NCBI RefSeq assembly: GCF_000331105.1
Contig: NC_020054.1
Location: 4,191,477 to 4,255,476 of the forward strand
Length of the DNA: 64,000 nucleotides
Direction: 5' to 3'
Source of the DNA: Fibrella aestuarina BUZ 2
GTDB lineage: Bacteria; Bacteroidota; Bacteroidia; Cytophagales; Spirosomataceae
Both the position numbers and the translations under genes were made by a program. The notes beneath the pieces are model-generated. The model worked only from the letters and a program-made list of their open reading frames with translations. It ran no database searches and was not told the origin of the DNA. Shown here one piece after another: positions 453 through 2,253 of this stretch; the first letter of the stretch is position 1, and each line of letters starts with the position of its first letter.

Positions 453-1502
453 TCAGTTGTCGGGCGCTGGCGGCCCCGTTGGCTCAGGCTCAGGCCCATA
501 GGCGGCTAATCCGGCTTGCAGCCGTTTCTGAATGCTATGGCGCAGCCGGGCGGGTTCCAGCACTTGCATGCCGTCGCCGAAGCCCAGAATTTCTTTTTCC
601 AACTCGAAATTGTGCTGTACCAGCAGTTCGATCACCATACCGGCCTCGGTTCGCGCCAGCACGCGTTGCGAGTGGTGCAGGGGTTTGGTCTCGACGTAGG
701 GCGCGTGGCGGGCGGTCACGAAGAGCTTCACGCGAACGGGCCGCAGGTTTTCGCTCACCGTGACGCCAATGACGTGCCGGTAATAGTGGTCGGGGTCGAT
801 GTGCTCGTTGGGTACGTAGTCGGCGGAGGTATCTACGCTGAGGGACAGCATCCGGTCGAGGGCCAGGTTGATGAGCAGCCCCTTTCCGTTGCGCAGGCCC
901 ACGGCAAACCAGCGGTTTTTAAACTCCTTGAGCCACCAGACGTGAAAGGTGAACGTTTGCGGAGCGCGGGCCGAAAACGACTGGTATTCGATTCGGAGCG
1001 CCCGTTGCTGCACCACTGCCTGATAGAGTTCGTCGAGCAGGTGGAGGCCCCGCAGGTTGTCGTTCTTCTCGAAATCGATTACCCGCGCCGACTTCCGGGC
1101 GGTGGCGTAGACGTGGTCTTCCAGTTTCTGCACCACATCGTTGAGCGCCGAGAAATGCGAGAAGCCCCGAAACTGCTTCAGCACTTCCACGGCCTCGTTC
1201 ATCCGCGACAGGTCGCCGTCTGACAGGGGGATGTTGGTGATGCTGTAGGTGGGATCGTCGTAGGTGTAATACTTTTTGTCGACCACCACGATGGGGGCAA
1301 AATAACCCAGTTTGTCACTGCGCATCAGTTGCAGATCGGCCTGCACGGTGCGGCGGCTGATGCCCTTGTCGATGCCTTCATACTCGTATAGCGCTTCCGA
1401 GACGCGCTCAATCAGGTCGTCAAGTGTCCAGGTACGTTGCCGGTTGCGCAGGCAGGCGTCGAGCGTTTTGTAGCGAATGAGGGCGTTTCGGTTAGCAGGC
1501 AT
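453..1502 (-). CDS. WYL-domain transcriptional regulator
   Basis: A 349-residue protein. Residues 1-75 form a winged helix-turn-helix (LIRYKTLDACLRNR, then SRRTVQADLQLMRSD as recognition helix). About residues 160-235 are the WYL domain (LRIEYQSFSA ... WWLKEFKNRWFAVGL, the equivalent of the W-Y-L signature). A C-terminal WCX-type region follows (VRVKLFVTARHAPYVETKPL). WYL regulators bind a ligand, in studied cases single-stranded DNA or nucleotides, and control damage or defence genes. The frame stays open to 1565, but codons before ATG 1502 lie in a dispersed repeat, so 1502 is preferred. The gene faces away from the leader RNA-slipin-rtcB unit and probably controls it (inference). It could instead be a general regulator unrelated to rtcB. 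Confidence 0.88.
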   Translation of the reverse strand: MPANRNALIRYKTLDACLRNRQRTWTLDDLIERVSEALYEYEGIDKGISRRTVQADLQLMRSDKLGYFAPIVVVDKKYYTYDDPTYSITNIPLSDGDLSRMNEAVEVLKQFRGFSHFSALNDVVQKLEDHVYATARKSARVIDFEKNDNLRGLHLLDELYQAVVQQRALRIEYQSFSARAPQTFTFHVWWLKEFKNRWFAVGLRNGKGLLINLALDRMLSLSVDTSADYVPNEHIDPDHYYRHVIGVTVSENLRPVRVKLFVTARHAPYVETKPLHHSQRVLARTEAGMVIELLVQHNFELEKEILGFGDGMQVLEPARLRHSIQKRLQAGLAAYGPEPEPTGPPAPDN

Positions 1503-1518
1503 AATGGCACGCGGAAGA

Positions 1519-1618
1519 CACGGATTTTTAGGATGATCGCGGATTTTATAGTCATACGGATTCATGCTTCTTACTCGGCCTCACGCTTTCAAATCCGCGA
1601 TCATCCTAAAAATCCGCG
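1519..1618. repeat. Dispersed inverted repeat with GATCATCCTAAAAATCCGCG arms
   Basis: Arms at 1519-1546 and 1591-1618 are reverse complements at 27 of 28 positions. A further partial copy follows at 1612-1640. Arms carry AAATCCGCGATCATCC. The repeat lies between the start of the WYL gene and its promoter region and could form a long hairpin. It is non-coding here, although an open frame runs through it in phase with the WYL gene. Confidence 0.8.
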
Positions 1619-1677: not shown

Positions 1678-1699
1678 ACTGCGCAAAAAGACTGCGCAG
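1678..1699. promoter_or_regulatory. Candidate operator between WYL gene and leader RNA
   Basis: ACTGCGCA occurs twice (1678-1685 and 1691-1698), 13 bp apart start to start. Read as an inverted repeat it is CTGCGCA-7 nt-TGCGCAG. An A/T-rich stretch with six T's directly precedes it. The site lies in the divergent region between the WYL regulator and the slipin-rtcB unit, where a WYL protein would be expected to bind. The binding partner is inferred only. Confidence 0.45.
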
Positions 1700-1802
1700 G
1701 TGACCTAAACCTTTGTCGCAGTGAAAGCGCCGATGGCCAACCCGGACGAGGGTTTCTGCAGGGCCCCGTAGTATCGCAGCCGCTGGCTGATCCCGATATG
1801 CT

Positions 1803-1928
1803 GTTGGTCGTAGGTGGCTGCACTATAGGGATCTGTGGGTTGGGGGTTCAAGTCCTCCCTCTGTTTCGGCAGGGTAGCTCAATGGTAGAGCAACAGGGAA
1901 AATGCAGGTTCGAATCCTGCTACCAACG
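1803..1928 (+). ncRNA. Permuted/double tRNA-like leader RNA of the rtcB operon
   Basis: Base pairing gives two tRNA-like bodies. Inner body, in permuted order: anticodon-type stem 3' strand TCTGT (1832-1836), 5-nt variable loop (1837-1841), T-arm GGGGG-TTCAAGT-CCTCC (1842-1858), acceptor 3' strand CTCTGTT (1859-1865), 2-nt joint, acceptor 5' strand GGCAGGG (1868-1874), TA as positions 8-9, D-arm GCTC-AATGGTA-GAGC (1877-1891), A26, then stem 5' strand ACAGG (1893-1897). The 2-nt joint cannot close a hairpin, so the outermost acceptor pairs must open (loop TTTCGG). Outer shell: GTTGGT (1803-1808) with ACCAAC (1922-1927), a possible D-arm GTAG/CTAT (1810-1826), and T-arm GCAGG-TTCGAAT-CCTGC (1904-1920). 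The inner body looks most like tRNA-Trp. No usable anticodon loop or CCA end is present, so translation is unlikely. Two decayed tRNA genes is the alternative. Confidence 0.6.
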
Positions 1929-1935
1929 CTAACCC

Positions 1936-2039
1936 CGTTGGTCCATTGGTTGGGAAGTCGACCGCTTCTAAAAATGGTCACTCGCTAGTTGGATCGATCA
2001 GCCGCGATCCGGTGGCGGTTGGGTTCGCCCGACCACCAC
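1936..2039 (+). ncRNA. Structured leader segment with UUCG hairpin
   Basis: CGTTGGT (1936-1942) is the exact complement of ACCAACG (1922-1928), so it could compete with the outer stem of the preceding tRNA-like RNA. GACC/GGTC (1960-1963 with 1976-1979) enclose a loop with CTTCTAA, reminiscent of an anticodon loop. A strong hairpin follows: GTGG-C-GGTTGGG (2012-2023), TTCG loop (2024-2027), CCCGACC-A-CCAC (2028-2039), with one C/A mismatch and one G-T pair. No convincing protein frame covers it. The function as part of the rtcB-operon leader is inferred. Confidence 0.4.
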
Positions 2040-2117
2040 AGCTTAGTCAGCGCCTGCAGGCCGGTAACGCGGCTGTGGCGGGTCGGGTAGCGGTAAATGG
2101 GCTGTTGTTGGCCGGTA

Positions 2118-2183
2118 CGTTGGTTCATCAGATAGCGTTGCGTCTGACGGGATTGACAGCCTCGCCAGCACCGGTTACCAACG
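2118..2183 (+). ncRNA. Second GTTGGT...ACCAAC-bounded leader element
   Basis: CGTTGGT (2118-2124) and ACCAACG (2177-2183) can pair over 7 bp and enclose 52 nt, which is tRNA-like in span. Inside is a perfect 5-bp hairpin TCAGA/TCTGA (2128-2132 with 2143-2147). No TTCRANN T-loop is visible, so this is at most a degenerate tRNA-like or simply a structured leader element. The same boundary words delimit the better element at 1803-1928. Confidence 0.3.
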
Positions 2184-2206
2184 CCCGGCACCAAAGCAGT
2201 CGCCGC

Positions 2207-2253
2207 ACCGGCTTCCGCGTGGGCCAGGCGGGTCGCGGGCTGATCGGTTTTTT
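2207..2253 (+). terminator. Possible attenuator before slipin gene
   Basis: ACCG (2207-2210) with CGGT (2245-2248) and CCGCG (2215-2219) with CGCGG (2234-2238) form an interrupted stem that ends at a run of six T's (2248-2253), 27 bp before the slipin start codon. This resembles an intrinsic terminator or attenuator and would make readthrough from the leader RNA into slipin-rtcB adjustable. The internal loops make it weaker than a classical terminator. Confidence 0.35.

Follow-up and report, generated by a model that had tools for sequence, protein, structure and literature searches.

The locus and its predicted RNA

The window, a 64,000-nucleotide stretch of DNA from Fibrella aestuarina BUZ 2, carries near its start a divergent WYL/WCX transcription regulator, a slipin and an RtcB RNA ligase, with a predicted structured noncoding RNA (ncRNA) lying directly ahead of the slipin gene (Table 1). 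The RNA-repair setting and the WYL regulator of the initial annotation are borne out, and the RNA feature reaches far past the limits that had been set for it (1803-1928). From 5' to 3', its modules are a 5' domain, a first circularly permuted tRNA-like body (body 1), a second permuted body (body 2), an H-type pseudoknot and a 3' element. Comparison with relatives makes it highly probable that approximately 1716 to 2253 encodes a structured ncRNA with this fold.

Table 1 Features of the slipin-rtcB locus, numbered from the first base of the window
Feature	Positions	Strand	Basis and remarks
WYL/WCX transcription regulator, divergent	453..1565	-	Pfam WCX 4.6e-13, WYL 1.7e-10
Palindrome TGCGCAAAAAGACTGCGCA, candidate operator	1680..1698	.	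recurs upstream of the 5' domain in WYL loci
AACCTTTG, promoter-like	1708-1715		basis for the predicted RNA 5' end; one mismatch to the promoter consensus
Structured ncRNA, predicted extent	1716..2253	+	both ends inferred; order of parts the same in relatives
5' domain	1735..1817	+	covariation in 37 sequences; model R1, 66.2 bits
5'-domain helices	P1 1735-1741/1803-1809; P2 1746-1748 and 1750-1752 with 1764-1769; P3 1773-1776/1794-1797	+
Body 1, tRNA mimic in circularly permuted order, anticodon loop open	1832..1897	+	covariation; model R2, 69.5 bits; YrlA match
Body 1, leading segments	1832-1836; 1842-1858	+	anticodon-stem 3' strand TCTGT; 5-nt variable loop; T-arm
Body 1, acceptor	1859-1865; 1868-1874	+	3' strand; joint TC; 5' strand
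Body 1, closing segments	1877-1891; 1892; 1893-1897	+	TA, then D-arm; A; anticodon-stem 5' strand ACAGG
Body-2 remnant	1904..1943	+	parser; T-arm 1904-1920, acceptor 1921-1927/1937-1943 (6/7 pairs); D and anticodon arms missing
H-type pseudoknot	1954..1979	+	GAAG 1954-1957/CTTC 1965-1968, GACC 1960-1963/GGTC 1976-1979, A-rich loop
3' element, TTCCG and T-run, possibly terminator-like	2206..2253	+	basis for the predicted RNA 3' end
Slipin (SPFH/Band 7 protein), 376 aa	2281..3411	+	Pfam Band_7 3.9e-21
RtcB RNA ligase, 512 aa	3562..5100	+	Pfam RtcB 1.4e-84

A scan of 1566-2280 against Rfam 15 (E up to 1) returned YrlA, tRNA and a weak mascRNA match and nothing else, and ARAGORN called no tRNA anywhere in the window. 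The Rfam tRNA match (1873-1925) fuses the body-1 D-arm with the body-2 T-arm; a canonical tRNA has its parts in the usual order and a free acceptor end, and here the order is permuted. Eight homologous loci (E up to 0.05) likewise gave tRNA and YrlA matches, with sub-threshold Thr_leader and tmRNA matches in L171. Folding energy was ordinary both for 1716-2000 (z -0.59), whose minimum-energy fold retained the second T-arm and all arms belonging to body 1 and lost the 5'-domain helices, and for the isolated 66-nt body 1 (z -0.78), in which the cloverleaf was the minimum-free-energy structure (6/7 acceptor pairs, 4/5 anticodon-stem pairs). As single-sequence folding energies are unremarkable, the case for the RNA stands on comparison.

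Comparative evidence for the modules

All segments of body 1 were found at the positions given in the initial annotation, and its reading as a permuted, Y-RNA-like imitation of a tRNA with an open anticodon loop agrees with both covariation and the YrlA match. Across 40 aligned homologues (of 41 rows), 93.9% of 840 cells were paired against a shuffled mean of 70.4% (0/500 shuffles equal), percentages that are somewhat flattered, as are those for body 2, because the rows were chosen by a parser that requires pairing. Double-change cells numbered 220 versus 63 in shuffles, with changes on both sides in 18 of the 21 pairs, and the covariation score was 0.738 against 0.247 for shuffled alignments and at most 0.203 for slid partners, which left 42.5-51.7% paired. 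The parser, which looks for a T-arm, acceptor, joint, acceptor and D-arm, found at least one permuted core in 77/88 slipin upstream regions versus 10/440 shuffled ones, and at least two in 40/88; two T-arms lay 57-92 nt apart in 61/88. These 88 regions include two duplicates (L085 of L102, L086 of L108), both outside later counts. The body-1 model R2 reached at least 50 bits in 73/86 loci, two of the 73 matches (L125, L134) falling on body 2. Six clade relatives without the two bodies (L082, L083, L099, L101, L103, L104) gave no body-1 match.

In 37 aligned relatives (of 39 rows; L154 and L174 were excluded for length or fit), body 2 is a full permuted cloverleaf with an anticodon arm, 94.6% paired under the same flattering choice of rows, with 227 double-change cells versus 69 shuffled and a covariation score of 0.776 versus 0.229; the 18 pairs with changes on both sides were equalled by 49/500 shuffles. 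Many Chitinophagaceae and others have a complete body 2 with an anticodon stem of 5 bp and a loop of 7 nt. The loop varies by species (CTGATAA, CTGTTAA, CTGTCAC, CTTCCAC, TTTTGGT and others) and, on our own reading, may be taken to display Ile, Asn, Asp, Gly and Gln anticodons. The clade of the window has a body 2 without D and anticodon arms and with the pseudoknot immediately after it. This reduced body 2, together with the six relatives in which body 1 was not found, indicates that neither body is indispensable.

The two bodies also decide a simpler origin that the initial annotation had named as its own refutation, two tandem tRNA genes decaying independently. Tandem tRNA genes likewise place a T-arm before a D-arm, and true tRNA arrays lie upstream in many loci, but within each body the paired acceptor strands covary (40 and 37 homologues), which would not be expected of neighboring tRNAs, and body 1 has an anticodon stem whose strands pair across the permuted core. 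Covariation in bodies 1 and 2 rules this origin out, and we give it virtually no weight.

The second T-arm reported earlier is present; it belongs, however, to the second permuted body. Nor were a wrapping stem GTTGGT/ACCAAC and two bodies sharing one anticodon-type stem borne out by partner swapping. Between the strand after ATGCTG and the second acceptor strand, the mean longest pairing run was 2.96 versus 2.88 with swapped partners (27 two-T-arm homologues), a value equalled or beaten by 30% of 1000 shuffles, and the outer stem from GTTGGT at 1803 was rejected. The same strand against the strand upstream of ACC gave 4.57 versus 3.36 (maximum of 1000 shuffles 3.92; n = 37). The GTTGGT at 1803 belongs to the closure of the 5' domain, where GTTGGTC pairs with GGCCAAC in P1 (TAACCAA/TTGGTTA in L082, GTAGCCGA/TCGGCTAC in L084), and ACCAAC (1922-1927) pairs with the GTTGGT at 1937-1942 as the acceptor stem of body 2, with ATCATC/GATGAT as its counterpart in L084. 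Of the three stems proposed for a covariance-model check, TCTGT/ACAGG and CTCTGTT/GGCAGGG showed compensatory changes, and GTTGGT/ACCAAC paired no better than swapped partners.

The remaining modules were compared in the same manner. In the 5' domain (37 of 43 candidate rows), 89.5% of cells were paired, double-change cells numbered 136 versus 50 shuffled, the covariation score was 0.678 versus 0.227, and 12 pairs had changes on both sides, a count equalled by 21/500 shuffles; unconstrained RNAalifold recovered most of these pairs and three additional covarying ones. The second stem of the pseudoknot pairs in 50/54 loci compared with 15.0 for swapped partners (maximum 24 over 2000 shuffles), the 54 being those of 86 loci with a fixed anchor, picked by that sequence anchor alone. 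TTCCG followed by a T-run occurs in 43/86 loci, where block shuffles averaged 2.4 (maximum 8), and, as an uncontrolled count, 20 of the 43 have a closing stem of at least 4 pairs.

Slipin linkage, distribution and neighboring genes

At least 530 slipin relatives were listed, of which the 80 best make up the named loci; these were picked via slipin, so that slipin adjacency among them is by construction. Two tests of linkage are free of this selection, namely the search for extra 5'-domain matches in the fetched DNA and the phylum sample. The 5'-domain model R1 had exactly one match, just upstream of slipin, in 83/86 slipin loci (37 rows that built R1 and 46 that did not, the match in L164 being weak and partial, E 0.007), and none elsewhere in 1.12 Mb of fetched DNA (E up to 0.1), including the Ro locus of the window genome. 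The exceptions, L130, L132 and L135, have instead a normal-order tRNA-Tyr-like sequence between palindrome and slipin, which ARAGORN recognized in L130 only.

Among the 296 genomes of the phylum sample, R1 was found in 10 and slipin (E 1e-40 or better) in 14; the 10 all fall within the 14, with every R1 match 0.36-0.60 kb before slipin on the same strand. An occurrence of 10/296 makes the RNA patchy across the phylum. The search filters miss weak matches, and R1 was unseen in 4/14 slipin genomes (L192, L198, L199, G544), three of which (L192, L198, L199) do have body 1. All 9 additional slipin loci read from the phylum sample had body 1 (58.5-78.9 bits); R1 scored above 25 bits in 6 of these, only 13-14 bits in 2, and was not seen in 1. 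The named loci are scattered across the Bacteroidota, spanning Spirosoma, Larkinella, Chitinophaga, Chryseolinea, Roseivirga and Flavobacterium; in 58 other genomes sampled among relatives, 7 had close slipin orthologues (59-82% identity). The constant partner of the RNA is slipin, not RtcB or Ro.

A phage origin was considered and rejected: viral contigs gave two slipin relatives (37% and 25% identity), neither with body 1 or the 5' domain. The 37%-identity relative (L242:172-1254) lies on a contig classed as viral from which the RNA is absent.

An RtcB homologue lies inside the fetched stretch in 60/85 loci, not always downstream of slipin; in a few it is on the opposite strand or before slipin, and in two the similarity is weak. 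For 25 genomes without RtcB in the stretch (L146 having a weak one; three are Tyr-like variants, and L159 was excluded), the genome search placed RtcB elsewhere in 19 and did not find it in 6, several of which are metagenome assemblies and possibly incomplete. The earlier view of RtcB as a necessary partner is hence not upheld. The RNA could in principle be a substrate, guide or sensor of RtcB, with body 1 imitating a tRNA broken in its anticodon loop, and the 60/85 stretches with RtcB favor this, as does a similar idea raised for a mutant tRNA of Pelobacter carbinolicus (PMC3543383). Against it, no RtcB was found in those 6/25 genomes, which makes RtcB a poor fit as sole target, and the open ends of body 1 continue into the RNA and are not broken ends; we consider this reading improbable.

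Other neighbors were more varied. Ten downstream proteins from seven loci were examined, among them a PNKP phosphatase domain (L118:7194-7838) and two RlaP proteins (L114:7148-8966), both directly after slipin and, by their Pfam names, belonging to RNA-repair families; L114 also has rtcB further downstream. The others were RecD-like, leucine-rich, AAA and DinB proteins and three without any match, so that most of the downstream neighbors examined had no RNA connection. PADLOC matched the WYL protein and neither slipin nor RtcB.

A WYL homologue is encoded in 36/85 homologous stretches. The palindrome TRCGCAAAAANACTGCGYA was scored in 81 loci (leaving out L083, L087 and three loci without the 5' domain) and stands at most 170 nt before the 5' domain in 22/35 WYL loci and farther upstream in 12 more; it is thus ahead of the unit in 34/35 WYL loci, compared with a near position in 3/46 other loci and a background of 12 in 455 kb. 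In L155, L160, L161 and L169 it precedes tRNA or Ro genes, as for one operon.

Between 1 and 15 tRNA genes lie upstream of the RNA on the same strand in 47/80 loci (243 same-strand genes in 403 kb versus 8 on the opposite strand; downstream, 12 on both strands in 550 kb), and in the other 33/80 ARAGORN found no tRNA upstream, a group to which the window would also belong. Arrays were observed in, among others, L108, L110, L113, L114, L116, L125, L138, L139, L140, L147 and L148. The commoner isotypes are Phe (22), Ile (22), Lys (20), Gln (20), His (19) and Asn (17), followed by Asp (16), Arg-ACG (16), Pro-UGG (14), Glu (14) and Tyr (13), with Gly (5), Leu (4), Ala (2), Val (2) and Thr (1) being scarce. 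In Niastella caeni, 13 array tRNAs were set against 42 other tRNAs of the genome and proved divergent from them: for 11 of the 13, a tRNA with that anticodon exists elsewhere, at 57-72% identity; two Ile array tRNAs had no counterpart among those fetched, so the array cannot be called wholly redundant. Across 14 loci, 137 array tRNAs were compared with the N. caeni tRNAs that share their anticodon and were 56% identical in the anticodon arm and 62% elsewhere, the 78% in the anticodon loop being inflated because the anticodon was matched.

Relation to known RNAs and possible function

A permuted tRNA mimic as such is already known from YrlA, and in Y RNAs a stem formed by the joined 5' and 3' ends binds the Ro protein. 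The predicted fold of body 1 has the tRNA-mimic topology of YrlA, distantly: the Rfam match (1834-1895) scored 37.7 bits (E 1.3e-6 in a 715-base search) against a gathering score of 69, a cut-off reached in 0/200 family genomes and by none of the matches in eight homologous loci. Weak YrlA matches occurred in 88/200 genomes and also in six controls, E. coli and B. subtilis among them, and since controls give them too, they are probably in part tandem tRNA genes. With YrlA (RF02553; Salmonella rsr-yrlBA-rtcBA) the RNA shares a permuted tRNA-like module, the same arm order and RNA-repair neighbors. It differs in its added 5' domain, second body, pseudoknot and slipin neighbor, in the mostly absent Ro and in size (about 540 nt versus 114 model positions). 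What is new relative to YrlA is the permuted mimic inside a large slipin-linked RNA with a 5' domain, second body and pseudoknot. We recognized no account of such a slipin-linked RNA in the open PMC literature, with an earlier mention in papers on Y RNAs or RNA repair being possible.

TROVE (Ro) was detected in 10/50 genomes searched, out of 80 with the locus, and within the fetched stretch in 4/85 loci. L108, L110, L144 and L155 combine a Ro gene, YrlA-like matches, the permuted RNA and slipin-rtcB in one stretch. The window genome has a separate Ro (TROVE) locus (L089, G000:C2:4926500-4936500) with YrlA-like matches and 8 same-strand ARAGORN tRNAs. The RNA could accordingly be a large Y RNA of YrlA type, a partner of the Ro protein Rsr that tethers the latter or gates its access, a reading to which the body-1 match, the Ro gene of the window genome with another YrlA-like match adjoining, and the four loci with Ro in the same stretch all lend something. 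However, TROVE occurs in only 10/50 genomes with the locus, the Rfam cut-off was missed in every listed case, and in 56/72 loci the second T-arm begins 1-12 nt past the body-1 anticodon stem, which on geometry alone leaves no space for a YrlA-like closing Ro stem. Co-occurrence and geometry both lower the plain Y RNA reading, to which we assign a small probability.

A linker of 2 to about 20 nt (parser cores) connects the acceptor strands of each body, so that there is no free 3' end and neither body is chargeable as it stands. Their order of halves is that of a permuted precursor that is circularized and cut into functional tRNAs, as in some algae and archaea, and an RNA ligase gene is nearby; but body 1 itself lacks an anticodon loop, there is no known maturation route, and to our knowledge a splicing endonuclease gene is not to be expected here, leaving such a precursor very unlikely. 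The algal and archaeal permuted tRNA genes (PMC3978253, PMC3218864) share the reversed tRNA halves and mature to ordinary tRNAs, whereas here the permuted form is embedded in a larger RNA.

We suggest, at somewhat less than an even chance for the statement as a whole, that the RNA is an inducible, unchargeable tRNA mimic that serves as decoy or scaffold in a slipin-centered tRNA-damage island; the decoy or scaffold function taken by itself is held with much the same reserve. The locus would be transcribed as one unit, with the WYL regulator acting at the palindrome to control it. Under stress the RNA would be made, in many species together with divergent tRNA-like transcripts, followed by slipin and a repair enzyme, usually RtcB. 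The bodies would present tRNA surfaces, namely the T-arm/D-arm elbow, to which body 2 would add its species-variable anticodon loop, and the RNA might thereby act as a stable decoy for tRNA-acting proteins, such as anticodon nucleases and enzymes of modification or repair, or give them a scaffold to dock on, with slipin perhaps keeping it at the membrane. For the YrlA tRNA-like domain, competitive inhibition of an anticodon nuclease has been suggested by Hughes and colleagues (PMC7790460). Covariation, slipin linkage, the anticodon arm kept in body 2, upstream tRNA arrays, PNKP and RlaP neighbors and the palindrome before WYL units count for a tRNA-damage island; ordinary folding energies, dispensable bodies, the rarity of 10/296, the 33/80 loci without upstream tRNA and the mostly RNA-unrelated downstream neighbors count against it.

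The main rival is a cis-acting leader that senses the state of tRNA, for instance by binding or cleavage of the bodies, and tunes read-through into slipin-rtcB. The RNA is invariably directly before slipin, the T-run element stands just ahead of slipin in 43/86 loci, and the Salmonella rtcBA operon is induced by tRNA fragments, though through RtcR (PMC7790460). Yet the RNA is long and multi-domain for this role, a body-2 anticodon that varies by species would be odd in a sensor of a single signal, and the upstream palindrome and WYL gene offer an alternative control; we regard a leader as unlikely, if a serious contender. A broader version of the decoy or scaffold reading, which we put forward tentatively, is a new class of large bacterial RNA in the form of a slipin-associated particle, in which an RNA with one or two permuted unchargeable mimics, together with the divergent tRNAs, would bait or gather tRNA-cutting and tRNA-mending enzymes at the membrane. 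The mimics may then have been re-derived from different tRNAs in different lineages, and the core of what would be a tRNA-damage defense would be slipin, not RtcB.

Large conserved bacterial RNAs without an assigned function are few, and the anatomy of the slipin-linked RNA is readable. With it, the notion of a tRNA mimic at an RNA-repair locus, familiar from YrlA, reaches a system that mostly does without Ro. It also suggests that slipin/SPFH proteins may have a part in RNA biology, and it opens to testing the connection of tRNA arrays with RNA ligases and tRNA-cutting enzymes. Shared as it is by relatives, the RNA may point to an unrecognized RNA player in how bacteria cope with tRNA damage.

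Two known systems resemble parts of this arrangement. In the trn operon and TrcR regulon of Anabaena (PMC10272220), removal of one repressor raises a tRNA array along with rtcB and a slipin-family gene, a combination also seen here; there the loci are separate, the regulator is another one, and the available part of that report mentions no permuted RNA. In Pelobacter carbinolicus, the mutant tRNA Pcar_R0061 precedes a stomatin-like gene, rtcA and rtcB (PMC3543383); here too a tRNA-like RNA stands right ahead of a stomatin-family gene with rtcAB, and it is thought to act outside translation. Pcar_R0061 itself is a single tRNA with the ordinary order of parts and an RtcR regulator, and in this it is nearer to the Tyr-like L130, L132 and L135.
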